A DNA stretch of 64,000 bases from assembly GCA_017643365.1 (NCBI GenBank), contig JAEPNO010000013.1, positions 62,001 through 126,000 on the forward strand, given 5' to 3'. The position numbers and the translations under genes were made by a program. Under the pieces are notes generated by a model. That model did not search any database. It had not been told where the DNA came from and saw only the letters and a program-made list of their open reading frames with translations. The stretch comes from Balneolaceae bacterium (GTDB lineage Bacteria > Bacteroidota > Rhodothermia > Balneolales > Balneolaceae). Each line of letters begins with the position of its first letter. The stretch's first letter is position 1. Below, one piece after another: positions 35,051 to 44,318 of the stretch.

Positions 35051-35151
35051 TTAATACTCCAAATATAATGCGAGCTTTATAAAAATTAACACTTTGAGTG
35101 TATAATTTTACTTGACATTTTTCCCGTTTTCAATAGCTTATCTCTATAAAT

Positions 35152-35255
35152 AAAAAAACCCCACAGAAGCGGGGTATAAGGATACTCATTTGAGCAGAGC
35201 CGGCAGAGTCTCAATGACATCTTTGATGTGAAAAGACTCTTTTCGAGATGAATTA
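35152..35255 (-). ncRNA. tracrRNA of the type II-C CRISPR-Cas system
   Basis: On the minus strand the RNA would begin near 35255 with TAATTCATCTCGAAAAGAGT, a perfect 20-nt complement of the CRISPR repeat read on the minus strand. A second pairing block (TCACA) follows after a central bulge. Then come a small CATC-AAA-GATG hairpin (the nexus position), a GC-rich segment with GCCGGC, and a terminator ACCCC/GGGGT followed by seven T (35175-35152). Length is about 104 nt. The opposite strand has no terminator after the anti-repeat, so the orientation is clear. It is transcribed away from cas9. Confidence 0.92.
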
Positions 35256-35298: not shown

Positions 35299-38200
35299 AT
35301 GACTAAAATTTTAGGTCTTGATTTAGGTGTAGCTTCGATTGGTTGGTCTTTAATTGAGCAACATGAAAACGGAGGAGAAATCCTAAAAAGCGGTGTTCGA
35401 ATTTTTCAGGCAAACAATGAAAGAGCCCTAGCGGCACCTGGCGAATCTGCAAAATCGGATCGTGGTACAAAGCGATCTATAAGAAGACAAAGAGACCGAA
35501 GATCCAGAAGAAAGCAGAAACTGTATAATCTTTTTTTTAAAAATGGATTAGCTCCTGAAAGAGGTGAATCTGAAGATTGGGTAAGTTTAAATCCCTATTT
35601 AATTCGAGCGAAAGCGCTTGATGAAAAAGTTACTCTTCAGGAATTGGGAAGAGCATTTTATCACTTAAATCAGCACAGAGGGTATAAAAGTAACCGAAAG
35701 GACGGAGAGGATAAAGATGGGGCAGTAAGCAAGGGCATCAAGAAAATTGAAACTCTGATGAATGAGTATGATGCAAGAACTTATGGTGAGTATTGTTTCA
35801 AAATAATCGAAAATCACAGATTGGAAAATAAGACCCCATCAGATGATGATTGGAGAATTAGAAACAACTATACCCATCGAAATATGTTCATTGATGAGTT
35901 TGATAAAATTTGGGAAGCTCAACAAAATCATCACCCGGAAATTTTAACAGAATCTTTAAGAGATGAAATTTATCAGACCATCTTTTATCAACGGAAGATG
36001 AAATCCCAAGCACATTTAATTGGCAAGTGCCCTTTGGAGAAGAATAAAAAGAGGATTCCAAAAGCTCACTTACTGTTTCAAGAGTTTAGAATTCGGAAAG
36101 AACTGAATAATCTAACAATGGCAGACGAAAATGGTATGCCAATTACTTTAACAGTAAAAGACAAAGAGTATTTATTTGATTATCTAAACACTCGTAAAGA
36201 GGCAAGTTTTAAAGCATTAAAAAGTGAATTAATTAAGAATGATGTCATCGCAAACTCAAATGTCAGTTTTAATTTAGAACGAGGTGACAGAAAAAATTTA
36301 AAAGGCAATACTACTAATTACCGACTTTCAAATAATAAAGCATTTGGTGACGATTGGTATAAACTGGACAGGGAACTTCAAGATTATATTGTCTACGTAT
36401 TAATTCATTTTGATGATCCTCAAAAGGTTTATGAGAAAGCGATGAAAGAATGGGGAAGAACCCATGAACAAGCTAAAACGTTAAGTCATTTAAGACTGGA
36501 AAGCGATTATGGAAGTTTTTCAGAAAAAGCGGTTAAAAAATTATTGCCGCACCTAAAAGAAGGAAAATTAGAAAGTACTGCAGTAGTTGAAGCGGGATAT
36601 GATCTGTTTGAGAAAAAACAAGGTCAGTTAACCAAACTTCCCATGCCACCAGAAATAAAAAATTCGGTGGTATATCATGCGTTGATAGAATTGCGAAAAG
36701 TGATCAATGGGATTATTCGAGTATACGGTATGCCTGATAAAATTCGTGTAGAATTGACACGGGATATTAAGGCGGGCTATGATCGTCGTCAAAAAATGAC
36801 GAAGAAAATGCGTGAGCTTGAAAAGAAAAACCAGAAAGCTAGAGAGGCTTTAAAAACAGCTCCATATAATCGGCAGGAGCCAACCTACAACGATATTCTT
36901 TGGTATAATTTAAGAGAAGAATGTAAAGGTGTCTGCCCATACACCGATAAATCTATTCCGGCTGAAGCATTTAATACCGGTGAATTTCAAATTGAACATA
37001 TTATTCCATTCAGCAGATCATTGGATGATTCATTTGCTAATAAAACATTATGCGACGCTGATTTCAATCGAAAAAAAGGAAATCGTACACCGTGGGAGTG
37101 TGTAGAGGCAGGCTTAATATCAGAAGACGATTTAGTGCAAAGAATTAGAAAATTGCCTTGGAATAAAAGAAAGAAATTTATTCAAAAATCGGTTGATCAG
37201 TCACAATTTATAAGCAGGCAATTAAATGATACCCGCTATATCAGTAAAGAAGCGAGTTCGTATTTAAAGCAATTAGCATGTGAAGATGTTGAAGTAGTAA
37301 AAGGGCAAACAACGTCATTATTGAGACATATTTGGGGATTAAACGGTGTCCTAAATCCTGAAAACGATGAGATGAAAAGTCGTGACGACCATCGCCATCA
37401 TGCTGTAGATGCCATTGTTGTTGCTCTTACCTCACGTTCATTGCTAAAACGATTGAGCGACGAAAATAAAAAGCTAGGGGAAGATGAATGGAAAACATTG
37501 GAAGAAACAGGTAGAGAACAATATTCTGAACTGAAAAAAAGAATGGATGGCCGTATTTGGTTAAGCCATCCTTGGCCAAGTTTTAGAAAAGATGTCGAAC
37601 GGTCTATTAATGATATTACCGTTTCTCATAGAGTAAAACGTAAAATTTCTGGTGCGTTGCACGAAGAAACATTTTACGGTGGAACCGATGAAAAAGCCCC
37701 AAAGAATAAAGTAAAAATGGTTGTTCGTAAACCTGTACACGCATTATCCAATAAAGAATTGAAGCTAATTAGAGATGCAGGAATACGTAGAATAGTTAAT
37801 GAAACCATTCAAAAAAGGGTGGAGGCAGGGATGACTCAAGTAAATGCTATTAAAAGCTTAGAAGCCGATCCTCCTTACATAATCTCAGATAAAGCTAAAG
37901 TGCCGATTAGAAAGGTTCGCTTACTCATGGAAAAAAATCCTGAGATAATGCACTCTTTTAGCAATGAAAAAGGTGAGTTGTTTAAACACGCTTTATACGG
38001 GAACAATCATCATATAGCTATTTATGAAACAACAGATAAAAAAGGAGAAACAAAACAAGTGGGTTTTGTAGTGCCAACGATGGAAGCAGCGAGAAGAGTA
38101 AAAGATGGAGATCCCATTATTGATAAATCTTACAGATCTCATGATCACACGTTTAAATATTCATTGGGTATAAATGACATGATAATCAATCATGATGATA

Positions 38201-38376
38201 GTGAGATCTATAGATTACAATATATCGAGAGTATTGGGAAAATGGGTTTTAGGAAAACTAATGTAGCTTTAAAAAAGCCGTCTGACCCAGGAATAATCAG
38301 GAAAATGCCAGGTACTTTAAAGGCAACCAAGATCAAGATTTCGCCAATTGGTGAAATCTTCCCAGCTAATGATTAA
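35299..38376 (+). CDS. cas9: CRISPR-associated endonuclease Cas9, type II-C
   Basis: A 1,025-residue Cas9, the compact size of subtype II-C. RuvC-I is ILGLDLGVASIGWSL with D8. The Arg-rich bridge helix is near residues 52-75. RuvC-II is KIRVELTRD with E485. The HNH domain has CPYTDK and FQIEHIIPFSRSLDDSFANKTL with H567. RuvC-III is DDHRHHAVDAIVVAL with H701 and D704. All catalytic residues are present, so both strands of a target should be cut. The ATG has GGGGAAG just upstream. cas1 overlaps its end by 8 bp, cas2 follows, and no csn2 or cas4 is present, which defines II-C. No clear promoter of its own was found. Confidence 0.98.
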   Translation: MTKILGLDLGVASIGWSLIEQHENGGEILKSGVRIFQANNERALAAPGESAKSDRGTKRSIRRQRDRRSRRKQKLYNLFFKNGLAPERGESEDWVSLNPYLIRAKALDEKVTLQELGRAFYHLNQHRGYKSNRKDGEDKDGAVSKGIKKIETLMNEYDARTYGEYCFKIIENHRLENKTPSDDDWRIRNNYTHRNMFIDEFDKIWEAQQNHHPEILTESLRDEIYQTIFYQRKMKSQAHLIGKCPLEKNKKRIPKAHLLFQEFRIRKELNNLTMADENGMPITLTVKDKEYLFDYLNTRKEASFKALKSELIKNDVIANSNVSFNLERGDRKNLKGNTTNYRLSNNKAFGDDWYKLDRELQDYIVYVLIHFDDPQKVYEKAMKEWGRTHEQAKTLSHLRLESDYGSFSEKAVKKLLPHLKEGKLESTAVVEAGYDLFEKKQGQLTKLPMPPEIKNSVVYHALIELRKVINGIIRVYGMPDKIRVELTRDIKAGYDRRQKMTKKMRELEKKNQKAREALKTAPYNRQEPTYNDILWYNLREECKGVCPYTDKSIPAEAFNTGEFQIEHIIPFSRSLDDSFANKTLCDADFNRKKGNRTPWECVEAGLISEDDLVQRIRKLPWNKRKKFIQKSVDQSQFISRQLNDTRYISKEASSYLKQLACEDVEVVKGQTTSLLRHIWGLNGVLNPENDEMKSRDDHRHHAVDAIVVALTSRSLLKRLSDENKKLGEDEWKTLEETGREQYSELKKRMDGRIWLSHPWPSFRKDVERSINDITVSHRVKRKISGALHEETFYGGTDEKAPKNKVKMVVRKPVHALSNKELKLIRDAGIRRIVNETIQKRVEAGMTQVNAIKSLEADPPYIISDKAKVPIRKVRLLMEKNPEIMHSFSNEKGELFKHALYGNNHHIAIYETTDKKGETKQVGFVVPTMEAARRVKDGDPIIDKSYRSHDHTFKYSLGINDMIINHDDSEIYRLQYIESIGKMGFRKTNVALKKPSDPGIIRKMPGTLKATKIKISPIGEIFPAND

Positions 38377-39265
38377 ACGGACAGTTGAAATATCAAGTGG
38401 CCCCATTCATTTATCAATCAAGCATAAACAAATGCTTTTAAAGAAGAATGGGGAAACTCATTCTATTCCGGTAGAAGACATGGGCTTGCTGGTACTTTCA
38501 AATCCTGCTATAAGCTATACCCATCAATTGATGTATGAATTGCTGGAAAACAATGTTGCCGTCCTGTTTTGTAATCGTCAACATATGCCTGAGGGTCTAT
38601 TATTGCCATTTGAGGATAATCAACTTCATCAAGCACGTCTACAGATACAAGCAGAAGTAAAAAAACCATTAAAGAAGCGACTTTGGCAACAAGTGGTTCG
38701 AGAAAAAATCAGTGCACAATCCAGTGTTTTAATTCAAAAACATGGTAAAGATGATGGGCTGAAATTATTAATGAAAAAAGTAAAATCCGGCGACCCAAGT
38801 AATGTCGAAGCGAGAGCTGCTAAAAAATATTGGAAAACGTTATTCAAGGATTCAGAATTTAAACGGAATTATAAGTTAAACGATATCAATGCGCTGCTAA
38901 ACTATGGCTATGCAATAATTAGAGCCGCAGTTGCACGTAGTATAACCGCCGCAGGTTTACATCCTTCCTTGGGGCTACATCATCATAATCAATACAACCC
39001 CTATTGTTTGGCAGACGATTTAATGGAACCATTTAGACCATTGGTAGACTCGGTAGTTTATGATCAATACCTATTAAATCAATCTTTAGAAATTGAAGTT
39101 TCGAAAGAAACTAAAAAGCCATTGTTAGAATTACTCACAACTAATATGATTGTTGATGATATGAAATATCCGTTACTGGAAAGCTTGCACATTATGGCAA
39201 GTTCATTGGTGGGGTGCTACACAAAAGAAAGACAACACATTGCTTTTCCAAAAAGGATGGAATAA
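38369..39265 (+). CDS. cas1: CRISPR-associated endonuclease Cas1
   Basis: A 298-residue Cas1 of the type II branch from the ATG at 38369 (MIKRTVEISSGPIHLSIKHKQM), which overlaps the cas9 stop by 8 bp. Earlier in-frame TTG/GTG starts inside cas9 are less likely. The N-terminal beta domain has VEDMGLLVLSNPAISYTHQLMYELLENNVAVLFC. The helical catalytic domain has SNVEARAAKKYW (Glu metal ligand), LHPSLGLHHHNQYNPYCLADDLMEPFRPLVD (His and Asp/Glu ligands). Cas1 and Cas2 integrate new spacers. Confidence 0.96.
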   Translation: MIKRTVEISSGPIHLSIKHKQMLLKKNGETHSIPVEDMGLLVLSNPAISYTHQLMYELLENNVAVLFCNRQHMPEGLLLPFEDNQLHQARLQIQAEVKKPLKKRLWQQVVREKISAQSSVLIQKHGKDDGLKLLMKKVKSGDPSNVEARAAKKYWKTLFKDSEFKRNYKLNDINALLNYGYAIIRAAVARSITAAGLHPSLGLHHHNQYNPYCLADDLMEPFRPLVDSVVYDQYLLNQSLEIEVSKETKKPLLELLTTNMIVDDMKYPLLESLHIMASSLVGCYTKERQHIAFPKRME

Positions 39266-39609
39266 TGGGTGCAAAGAGTTACATATTCGGGGGGATGAAT
39301 ACCATGTGGATGGTAGTAATGTTTGATTTACCGGTAGATACTAAAGCGGCAAGAAAGGAAGCGAATGATTTTAGAATACGCATTAAACAAGATGGTTTTA
39401 CCATGATGCAACTTTCTGTTTATATGCGGCATTGCCCAAGCAGAGAAAATGCAGATGTTCATGAGCGACGCGTAAAAAAAATATTACCACCCGATGGGGA
39501 AGTTCGTATAATTCGAATCACTGATAAGCAATTCGGAAACATGAAAATATTTCGTGGAAGGCGAAGAAAACCTACTGAAAATGCGCCCAAGCAATTACAA
39601 ATGTTTTAG
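39265..39609 (+). CDS. cas2: CRISPR-associated protein Cas2
   Basis: A 114-residue protein from the ATG at 39265, which shares an A with the cas1 stop (TAATG) and has AAAGGA about 8 bp upstream. A second ATG at 39295 would start MNTMWMVV, nearer the usual Cas2 N-terminus. Type II Cas2 features are clear: MWMVVMFDLPVDTKAARKEAN, then DGFTMMQLSVYMRHCPSRENADVHERRVKKILPPDGEVRIIRITDKQFGNMKIFRG. It is the structural partner of Cas1. The first CRISPR repeat begins 57 bp after the stop. Confidence 0.95.
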   Translation: MGAKSYIFGGMNTMWMVVMFDLPVDTKAARKEANDFRIRIKQDGFTMMQLSVYMRHCPSRENADVHERRVKKILPPDGEVRIIRITDKQFGNMKIFRGRRRKPTENAPKQLQMF

Positions 39610-39631
39610 TTTTTTTCGACTTGGAACTGAA

Positions 39632-39656
39632 CAAGTAATTGGGATGCAATTACTTG
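39632..39656. promoter_or_regulatory. Perfect 10-bp inverted repeat between cas2 and the first CRISPR repeat
   Basis: CAAGTAATTG (39632-39641) and CAATTACTTG (39647-39656) are perfect complements around GGATG. The element ends 10 bp before the first repeat. It lacks a T run on either strand, so it is not a classic terminator. It may be a protein-binding site or fold that marks the acquisition end of the array. Confidence 0.6.
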
Positions 39657-39666
39657 AACAGAACCT

Positions 39667-42600
39667 AATCTAATTCATCTCGAAAAGAGTTCAAATCACA
39701 GCGCCTGATTCGTTCGCAAATATTCGAGTTGTAATCTAATTCATCTCGAAAAGAGTTCAAATCACAGCATTTGCGCGAAGATGGACATGGTGGGGAGTAA
39801 TCTAATTCATCTCGAAAAGAGTTCAAATCACAGCTTGCCGATTAAACGCACGAACCTATCGAAAAATCTAATTCATCTCGAAAAGAGTTCAAATCACAGC
39901 TAGTAGCTCTTCTTTTTGAAATAGACCGCCAATCTAATTCATCTCGAAAAGAGTTCAAATCACAGCATTTCTTCAAGCACATCGCCATTTGTTCGAAATC
40001 TAATTCATCTCGAAAAGAGTTCAAATCACAGCACTTAAAGCAGTACCGTTCACATATTTGTAAATCTAATTCATCTCGAAAAGAGTTCAAATCACAGCTC
40101 AACAGCCGAGCCCATTTCAAAGACTTTCAATCTAATTCATCTCGAAAAGAGTTCAAATCACAGCCGTCCGGGCTTAGTTACTCTAGCTATTTCAATCTAA
40201 TTCATCTCGAAAAGAGTTCAAATCACAGCGCTTAAAGCAGTACCGTTCACATATTTGTAAATCTAATTCATCTCGAAAAGAGTTCAAATCACAGCAAATT
40301 ACTTCTGATATATGTGATTTTGCTAAATCTAATTCATCTCGAAAAGAGTTCAAATCACAGCGGAATATTCAACGGGTAAAAGCCTTTGGAAAATCTAATT
40401 CATCTCGAAAAGAGTTCAAATCACAGCTATTCTGAACCTTTCATTCGACTTAATGGTAATCTAATTCATCTCGAAAAGAGTTCAAATCACAGCCTCTTCC
40501 ACGCGATTGCATAGCGCCTCAACAATCTAATTCATCTCGAAAAGAGTTCAAATCACAGCTCGTTGGGATTGGTTCCTATGTCTATGCTTAATCTAATTCA
40601 TCTCGAAAAGAGTTCAAATCACAGCCTTTATTCGCGGCTATTTACAATGGTGTAAAATCTAATTCATCTCGAAAAGAGTTCAAATCACAGCATTTCTGAC
40701 CTAGACGAAACTAGTGGGTATAATCTAATTCATCTCGAAAAGAGTTCAAATCACAGCCTTTGATTCCCTGTCTTTCGTAAATATCAGAATCTAATTCATC
40801 TCGAAAAGAGTTCAAATCACAGCAATTTAATCTCTATCTGCCTACCCGTTTAGAATCTAATTCATCTCGAAAAGAGTTCAAATCACAGCTGACACCTTCA
40901 TGACCGTACAGGGAAAAGAAATCTAATTCATCTCGAAAAGAGTTCAAATCACAGCTAATGCAGACACTGATTTGCAAGAAGAAATAATCTAATTCATCTC
41001 GAAAAGAGTTCAAATCACAGCCAGGCTCAGTAGCACACCACGGATGTTCGTAATCTAATTCATCTCGAAAAGAGTTCAAATCACAGCTCGCTAAACACCT
41101 TTACTAATGAATGAAAGAATCTAATTCATCTCGAAAAGAGTTCAAATCACAGCTAACCTTTTTAAGCTCGCTTAGTTTATTTTAATCTAATTCATCTCGA
41201 AAAGAGTTCAAATCACAGCCACCTTCGTCGGGTTGGCAACCTATACGCTAATCTAATTCATCTCGAAAAGAGTTCAAATCACAGCCCAACCAATAGTGCC
41301 ATCAATATCGATGGTAATCTAATTCATCTCGAAAAGAGTTCAAATCACAGCGAAGCCTTATCTTCTAGTTAATAAATCTTCAATCTAATTCATCTCGAAA
41401 AGAGTTCAAATCACAGCAGATAATCAACCGCCATCCTTTTACCTATTGAATCTAATTCATCTCGAAAAGAGTTCAAATCACAGCAGTATACAGTCCCCAA
41501 TCATTAACAAGAGAAATCTAATTCATCTCGAAAAGAGTTCAAATCACAGCGTAATTCAGAAGAGGGAATTATGATAATCGAATCTAATTCATCTCGAAAA
41601 GAGTTCAAATCACAGCTTGTTTCAGGTAACGGAATAGGCTCAAATCAATCTAATTCATCTCGAAAAGAGTTCAAATCACAGCAGCCTCAGACTACGGCAC
41701 AACATACAGTAAAATCTAATTCATCTCGAAAAGAGTTCAAATCACAGCCCAATTCGCTTCTGTATAATGGTTTATGAAAATCTAATTCATCTCGAAAAGA
41801 GTTCAAATCACAGCGGGCTGATCTTGTATAAAGAATGAATCAAAATCTAATTCATCTCGAAAAGAGTTCAAATCACAGCAGATAGCCCCACTCAGAGACG
41901 TATTCAGCTAATCTAATTCATCTCGAAAAGAGTTCAAATCACAGCATAATCCGGCGGGCGTCAAAAAGAACGCTAATCTAATTCATCTCGAAAAGAGTTC
42001 AAATCACAGCACATCCGAGATCATAGCCACGTTCCTAATTAATCTAATTCATCTCGAAAAGAGTTCAAATCACAGCTTGATAGTTCCTTGTTCGTTAACG
42101 TCTGGAAATCTAATTCATCTCGAAAAGAGTTCAAATCACAGCGTTTCGCTCATTTCTGCGATTATCGCATTCAATCTAATTCATCTCGAAAAGAGTTCAA
42201 ATCACAGCTAGCGTGTCTTTGCTTGCCATGAATACGTTAATCTAATTCATCTCGAAAAGAGTTCAAATCACAGCTTTTAATATCCCTTATCAACCAGACT
42301 TATCAATCTAATTCATCTCGAAAAGAGTTCAAATCACAGCTTCAGCAGATGACTCTGCTGCGAAAGAATTAATCTAATTCATCTCGAAAAGAGTTCAAAT
42401 CACAGCCACCTACCATTTACCGACTTGCAAGTAATTAATCTAATTCATCTCGAAAAGAGTTCAAATCACAGCCATTTAGCGATGTAATGTTCATCGGTTG
42501 CAAATCTAATTCATCTCGAAAAGAGTTCAAATCACAGCGGTGCAGTAGTTATTTAACCGGGTGCGCAGAATCTAATTCATCTCGAAAAGAGTTCAAATCA

Positions 42601-42731
42601 CAGCATGCAGAAAACAATGTGGTAATGGTGCATCAATCTAATTCATCTCGAAAAGAGTTCAAATCACAGCATGTTATAAATAACCTTGTTACCGCCTTTA
42701 ATCTAATTCATCTCGAAAAGAGTTCACACAG
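39667..42731 (-). CRISPR. Type II-C CRISPR array, 47 repeats and 46 spacers
   Basis: The 36-bp repeat reads AATCTAATTCATCTCGAAAA then GAGTTCAAATCACAGC on the plus strand. The first copy is at 39667-39702, and copies recur every 65-67 bp; 46 full copies look identical. The last (42700-42731) lacks three bases (AAT) and diverges at its end. Spacers are 29-31 bp, mostly 30. The minus strand is the crRNA strand because the tracrRNA anti-repeat is on the minus strand; the repeat then starts GCTGTG, as in many type II repeats. On that strand each repeat contains TTTG, 19 bases and TAGATT at its 3' end, a Bacteroidota-type promoter. The degenerate copy lies at the cas-distal end. Confidence 0.98.
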
Positions 42732-42811
42732 GATTACCACAACAAAATTTTGTGCTTCAGTGCTTCAGTGGCATAAATAATCTTGCAATTCTTTAGAGAA
42801 TAAATCAAATT

Positions 42812-43613: not shown

Positions 43614-44318
43614 CTAGCTTTCAAGAGCAAGCACCAAATAATAACCGGTTAAGGCTTTGGGGAAGTCTTCCTCTGCTTTTTCGTTAAAGTAGCGAGCCAT
43701 AATTTCTAAATCAGCATGTTGCTCATTCGCCCGTAATTCACTAAAAAAGGATTGCAACAGCTCCATCCCTCGGTGATAATCTTCAATTTCCTCGGAATTT
43801 GTGATGCTTTCGTGGGTTTCTTTCACAGCGTCAGTACCGGATTCGTTGTAAACAGCCAGCAGGGTATCAGCCATTACTTTCTTTGGCTCCGAAACGGAAA
43901 CCACTTCAAAACGATCGTACACCAATGTGGCATTCGGTGGGATGTCCTCACCGGCGCCTTCTTCTCCGTATGCGATTGAAGCCGGCAGGGTTGCAACTAC
44001 ATTATCGCCTTCGCGCATCATAAAAGCCATTTCATTGAAGCCGGAAATCAAGCTAGAAACACCGGCAATAAAGGTGAATAACGAGTCTTCTGCCTCATAA
44101 GACGTCCAAACCAAATTGTCATCCACCATCAAGCTTAGTTTGGTTGATACTTCCGATCCAACTTCTATTTCGCGTCCATCACCCTTTTTGAGGTAGTAGT
44201 ATTGCAATCCACTTTCCGTGGTTACGGTATGTTCAGGACCTAAGCCTTGTTCACTTTTTGTTTTGTTTGAGGTACACCCAATAATCAAAGCGAGGAAAAG
44301 CAGAAGAGATAATTTCAT
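43614..44318 (-). CDS. FKBP-type peptidyl-prolyl isomerase lipoprotein, apparently truncated
   Basis: A 234-residue lipoprotein (lipobox LIIGC near residue 15). The FKBP domain covers about residues 35-140: TESGLQYYYLKKGDG, a flap with VWTSYEAEDSLFTFIAG, LISGFNEMAFMMREGDNVVATLPASIAYGEEGAGEDIPPNATLVYDRFEVVSV. Key isomerase-site residues (Y, F, the GY/GEEG loop, I/P) are present. The C-terminal 90 residues are helical and TPR-like, and a single in-frame TAG appears to cut off the last 38 residues. The isomerase domain is complete, so activity may persist. Confidence 0.88.
   Translation of the reverse strand: MKLSLLLFLALIIGCTSNKTKSEQGLGPEHTVTTESGLQYYYLKKGDGREIEVGSEVSTKLSLMVDDNLVWTSYEAEDSLFTFIAGVSSLISGFNEMAFMMREGDNVVATLPASIAYGEEGAGEDIPPNATLVYDRFEVVSVSEPKKVMADTLLAVYNESGTDAVKETHESITNSEEIEDYHRGMELLQSFFSELRANEQHADLEIMARYFNEKAEEDFPKALTGYYLVLALES

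Follow-up and report, generated by a model that had tools for sequence, protein, structure and literature searches.

Predicted host-type promoter boxes within the repeats of a type II-C CRISPR array from a Balneolaceae bacterium

The CRISPR-Cas locus and its repeats

The window, a stretch of 64,000 nucleotides from the genome of a Balneolaceae bacterium, contains the genes cas9 (35299-38376, plus strand), cas1 (38348-39265, plus strand) and cas2 (39214-39609, plus strand), followed by a CRISPR array, with no other cas gene located between cas9 and the array. The type II-C Cas9 protein has a length of 1025 amino acids and shows matches to RuvC_III and HNH_4, Cas1 was matched to the type II family TIGR03639 and Cas2 to TIGR01573 (the tested stretch of cas2 starts at 39295). 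The locus is of type II-C in that cas9, cas1 and cas2 are present without csn2 or cas4, and in that a tracrRNA with an anti-repeat is located near cas9. The order cas9-cas1-cas2, with the leader between cas2 and the array, is also that of the II-C locus in Riemerella anatipestifer (PMC5006608).

The array (39667-42735) consists of 46 identical repeats of 36 nt, one degenerate repeat and 46 spacers, most of which are 30 nt long. The intact repeat, GCTGTGATTTGAACTCTTTTCGAGATGAATTAGATT, is identical in 46 of the 47 copies, and no further copy was found outside the array in the whole 3.77 Mb genome. Two spacers (40259-40230 and 40062-40033) share 29 of their 30 bases and differ in the final base (C/T). 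No target was identified when the whole array was compared with phages or when two spacer cores were compared with viral contigs, and the core shared by the two near-identical spacers had no exact match in the latter.

The anti-repeat, which is a repeat copy located upstream of cas9, has a minus-strand orientation, and the tracrRNA (35151-35253, predicted start at 35253) is thus a minus-strand transcript, with a clear terminator at its end (stem at 35175-35158, then a T run). The anti-repeat and its pairing with the repeat place the crRNA strand of the array on the minus strand, directed toward the leader. In the predicted fold of the repeat with the tracrRNA, bases 1-30 of the repeat are paired, while TTT (8-10) and TAGATT (31-36) are unpaired; with a tracrRNA start set further upstream, bases 31-32 would also be paired.

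Read on the minus strand, every intact repeat (46 of 46) contains TTTG at positions 8-11, 19 bases at positions 12-30, and TAGATT at positions 31-36, such that a -10-like hexamer forms the 3' end of the repeat, exactly as described in the initial annotation. In the first intact repeat (42635-42670), these boxes are located at 42663-42660 and 42640-42635, respectively. The degenerate, leader-distal copy (42700-42735), which is the first repeat read on the minus strand, has retained TAGATT, but TTTG is changed to TGTG. A repeat lies upstream of all 46 spacers, with both boxes in 45 cases and without the -33 box in one. The last repeat (39702-39667) faces the leader and is not followed by a spacer; RNA predicted from its box pair would be antisense to cas2-cas1.

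The putative tracrRNA promoter (35288-35258, minus strand) has the form TTTG-N19-TAAATTTG, and the previously noted identity of its spacing to that of the repeat was confirmed. In the nearest relative (L058), the tracrRNA promoter follows this design as well, with TTTG-N19-TACCTTTG. Two near relatives (L059 and L060) carry TATACT at this position, which indicates that the promoter code of the family is not strict.

Polarity of the array and the leader hairpin

The array is read toward the leader and has its degenerate repeat at the crRNA 5' end, which is the polarity of the Neisseria type. Among arrays with differing ends, 40 of 42 from Bacteroidota and 12 of 13 from other phyla have the degenerate repeat on the crRNA 5' side, and the crRNAs and cas9 are encoded on opposite strands in 53 of 68 and 29 of 29 arrays, respectively. 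At many loci in both host groups, the leader-distal repeat has a scrambled 5' part and a nearly perfect 3' part, and the boundary between them is often sharp. The degenerate first repeats keep bases 18-36 as a whole, and conservation of the box specifically was discarded as an argument, being inseparable from conservation of the entire 3' half.

The leader end (39607-39666, minus strand) contains a hairpin of the form GG..CTG..CAAGTAATTG/CAATTACTTG..CAG..CC. The hairpin (39666-39623) begins one base past the last repeat, has symmetric TT/TT internal loops, and is conserved with compensatory stem changes in four relatives (L058-L061). Strong hairpins (z < -3) directly after the last repeat were identified in 23 of 37 arrays from other phyla and in 15 of 76 Bacteroidota arrays. 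On the crRNA strand, 12% of the Bacteroidota arrays and 16% of the others have a hairpin with a T run directly after the last repeat, as compared to 0.4% and 1.1% after shuffling; on the cas strand, the proportion is about 2.6% in both groups. Such an excess on the crRNA strand is expected if transcripts exit the array toward the leader. The hairpin in the window has no T run, and it may be either a terminator or an integration element.

The host promoter code and the predicted strength of the repeat promoters

The promoter code of the host was calibrated on tRNA genes, which were chosen after the bare consensus and an expectation-maximization (EM) search had failed to resolve promoters: TTTG-N17-21-TAnnTTTG was rejected as a genome-wide marker (104 sites, fewer than the 151 in the reversed control), and EM on 206 upstream regions returned no clean two-box motif. 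TAnnTT was found at most 35 nt upstream of 19 of the 30 tRNA genes, as compared to 26% of random intergenic windows. In 12 of 16 chosen tRNA boxes, TTG was located 20-21 bases upstream, with about 0.6 expected per gap; the boxes were picked with TAnnTT in mind, which leaves the gap count as the cleaner evidence. The host genome uses TAnnTTTG with an upstream TTG. The gap of 19 bases in the repeat is 1-2 bases shorter than in these tRNA promoters, and the corresponding gap in Bacteroidota tracrRNA promoters is 19-20.

Of the Bacteroidota -7 box, the repeat contains TAGATT alone, and the closing TG of TAnnTTTG would have to come from the spacer. The box is completed at only one of the 46 repeat-spacer junctions (42501-42508, minus strand; TAGATTTG, with a spacer that starts with TG), which is the predicted strongest crRNA start. 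No excess of TG at spacer starts, as a sign of selection, was observed. Scored with the tRNA matrix, the junctions fall below nearly all tRNA promoters, a few junctions excepted, and the median junction score is reached by chance about three times per kb per strand. For most junctions, the lower score results from the two final letters of the box, which are supplied by the spacer. Thus, the repeat promoters are probably weak and of uneven strength.

In Flavobacterium psychrophilum, the sigma-A box spans -12 to -5 (PMC9723704). With the box placed at these positions, the predicted start is base 7 of the spacer, and the predicted guides have a length of 24 nt for 41 of the 46 spacers, 23 nt for four and 25 nt for one. 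Transcription of each crRNA thus probably begins within its own spacer.

The array is read toward the leader, and hence no leader promoter is involved, as had been suggested. Consistently, neither the minus strand upstream of the array nor the plus strand of the leader contained a tRNA-grade site. The weakness of the repeat promoters by the tRNA standard also fits another account, according to which one long precursor starts at or beyond the leader-distal end (at least 42.74 kb), for example by read-through from the co-directional gene upstream (43614-44318, minus strand), and is cut by RNase III with the tracrRNA, the boxes being relics of ancestral II-C sigma-70 boxes. The first repeat, in which the -33 box has not been maintained, agrees with such a precursor. 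However, the flank from which it would start has no tRNA-grade promoter on the minus strand, and two weak terminator-like sites lie in its path.

Type II-C repeats in Bacteroidota and other phyla

We compared the repeats of II-C loci from Bacteroidota and other phyla, in total 131 repeats that were grouped into 52 Bacteroidota and 40 other clusters. The pattern TTG-N18-21-TAnnTT was found in 30 of the 52 Bacteroidota clusters (shuffled mean 5.3, maximum 12; none of 1000 shuffles reached 30), in 2 of 52 on the reverse strand, and in 14 of 23 under harsher clustering. The gaps from TTG to the box peaked at 19 (17 clusters) and 21 (7 clusters). Only 3 of the 40 clusters from other phyla contained this pattern (1.4 expected). 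Conversely, TTG-N18-21-TAnn[AC]T was identified in 23 of these 40 clusters (2.2 after shuffling) and in 5 of the 52 Bacteroidota clusters (4.2 after shuffling). Non-II-C repeats from Bacteroidota, used as a control, gave no matches, but these were just six, GC-rich, and too few to weigh.

In other phyla, TAnnnT occupies positions 31-36 in 39 of 40 clusters (0.9 expected), with hexamers such as TACACT, TACAAT and TATAAT, which correspond to the sigma-70 box known from II-C repeats (PMC4607530). The same ending was found in 10 of the 23 Bacteroidota clusters with repeats of 36 or 37 nt; a large group of Flavobacterium repeats ends with GATATT. Position 35 is T in 9 of the 10 Bacteroidota repeats ending with TAnnnT, as compared to 3 of 39 elsewhere (p = 1e-6). 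TTG at positions 9-11 is common in both groups (47 of 52 Bacteroidota and 23 of 40 other clusters) and is thus not diagnostic of Bacteroidota. As judged from these repeats, TTG and its spacing belong to II-C systems in general, and the phylum-specific part is a T, rather than A or C, at position 35. The earlier proposal that the repeat carries a promoter in the code of the host sigma factor is therefore supported by the tRNA promoters and by the enrichment of the box pair that emerged from the suggested alignment of related repeats, but not by TTG with the spacing of 19, which is shared by II-C systems of many phyla.

A similar contrast was observed for the predicted tracrRNA promoters. Of 61 Bacteroidota loci, 26 have TAnnTTTG immediately ahead of the anti-repeat (2.3 by shuffling), or 42 if the box is relaxed, with TTG gaps that peak at 19-20, as compared to 1 of 29 loci in other phyla.

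In a Cas9 tree inferred with FastTree, three Rhodothermia lineages (the clade of the window, L095, and L094/L143) are nested among relatives from other phyla with boxes of the sigma-70 type, and all three carry TAnnTT. The tree thus suggests that the box follows the host, with three independent host contrasts, which are too few for a sign test, and with a counter-example in a Lentisphaerota/Sabulitectum clade that has TATATT or TACATT. Taken over the approximately 130 arrays compared, the putative repeat-embedded promoter is a conserved, host-matched feature that changes with the host lineage.

These comparisons also bear on whether the boxes in a long precursor would be relics. TTG and the spacing are indeed ancestral, but relics would not be expected to track the host code at position 35, nor to reappear in longer repeats at the same TTG gap. 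Overall, we consider transcription as one long precursor unlikely. Still less probable is that the repeat 3' end owes its conservation to a different contact with DNA or protein, for instance in Cas1-Cas2 integration where leader and repeat meet or in the loading of Cas9, and resembles a promoter incidentally: integration does occur at the leader-proximal repeat end and the conserved stretch in the degenerate first repeats extends beyond the box, but the change from A or C to T matches the host rather than the Cas9 clade, which counts against a non-promoter role, and integration predicts neither a TTG 18-21 bases upstream nor its shift with the box.

The shift of the box was observed in the longer repeats. 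The sequences TATCTTTG, TATCTTCG, GATCTTTG or similar ones are present in many of the 45-47 nt repeats from Bacteroidota and in several 36-mers that have no box at the end. This internal box mostly starts at base 24 or 26, with TTG at positions 2-4 usually 18-21 bases upstream; alternatively, it starts at base 31-32, with TTG at positions 9-11 and a gap of 19-20. The pattern [TG]AnnTT[TC]G with a TTG gap of 18-21 was found in 13 of 29 long repeats, as compared to 0.6 expected. A competing explanation for TTTGA in the long repeats, its pairing with an upstream TCAAA, leaves TA unexplained. In three related 36-nt repeats (L077, L078 and L079), TAnnTTTG is kept at positions 21-28 while nn varies (TAGATTTG, TAGTTTTG and TAATTTTG); the TTG gap of 16 in these repeats is below the usual range. 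The candidate promoter box held internally by the repeats of 45-47 nt, with another TTG usually 18-21 bases upstream, is a new observation.

A host-adapted variant of the type II-C design

The reading that we prefer, with a probability of about 0.68, is that each repeat of the array serves as a weak promoter for the main sigma factor of the host. The sigma factor would read TTG (within TTTG) near -33 and TAnnTT at -12 to -7 in each repeat, and the start of transcription would be at approximately base 7 of the spacer. The resulting crRNA would consist of a 24-nt guide and the next repeat, the first 30 bases of which would pair with the tracrRNA, itself transcribed from a promoter of the same type but of full strength.

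Promoters in II-C repeats and the reversed direction of the arrays are established (PMC4607530, PMC6737040, PMC8616872), as are -10 boxes at the 3' end of the repeats (PMC4607530). A promoter in each repeat was reported for Neisseria meningitidis and Campylobacter jejuni (Zhang 2013, as cited in PMC6737040 and PMC8616872; Pearson 2015, PMC4607530). As in these species, the repeat in the window has 36 nt and a -10 box as its last six bases, the array is antisense to the cas genes and read toward the leader, a degenerate repeat is located at the crRNA 5' end, and the start is expected within the spacer. Unlike TACAAT and TAAAAT in Neisseria and Campylobacter, TAGATT would suit a sigma factor that reads TAnnTTTG, the full box extends two bases into the spacer, and TTTG is located 19 bases upstream.

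In Bacteroidetes, a repeat-encoded TTG at -33 was proposed as a promoter in Flavobacterium columnare with thin RNA support (Hoikkala et al., 2021; PMC8092290), and the proposal was repeated for F. psychrophilum (PMC10309648). The direction of the F. columnare array rested on eight reads, and its II-C system also has a predicted toxin-antitoxin pair, ParDE (PMC8092290). The array in the window resembles both in its TTG near -33 and in transcription toward the leader. No -10/-7 box was assigned in the Flavobacterium arrays, the repeats of which end with GATATT, whereas both boxes are present in the window and were compared across repeats. According to the initial annotation, the arrangement was not known to be described for the phylum; however, TTG at -33 had already been proposed in Flavobacterium, and -10 boxes in II-C repeats are well known. 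For the -7 box and its host-wise switch, we found no paper that assigns the former or demonstrates the latter, in a search that mostly did not cover subscription journals. The arrangement in the window is a host-adapted variant of a known II-C design.

The II-C repeat of R. anatipestifer differs from that of the window in its length of 47 nt and has been reported to lack internal promoters (PMC5006608), but the surveyed repeats of that length class often hold a box similar to TAnnTTTG. We tentatively propose, at slightly less than even odds, that the II-C repeats of Bacteroidota were recoded for the sigma factor of the phylum, with the box either at the end of the repeat (TAnnTT with TTG at 9-11) or, in repeats of 45-47 nt, internally (a box like TATCTTTG at about 23-28 with TTG at 2-4, or a box at 31-32 with TTG at 9-11). 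In the former, the first two bases of the spacer would finish the promoter and set the crRNA dose. In the latter, the predicted start near repeat base 36 would leave several repeat-derived bases at the crRNA 5' end, which would need to be trimmed.

If this is true, a horizontally moved II-C system would need its repeats rewritten for the polymerase of the new host, which would limit or shape the spread of II-C systems and would help to account for the variable length and ending of the repeats in Bacteroidota. The level of each guide RNA would depend on the two bases with which its spacer opens, and long-repeat systems described as being without internal promoters would have them after all.
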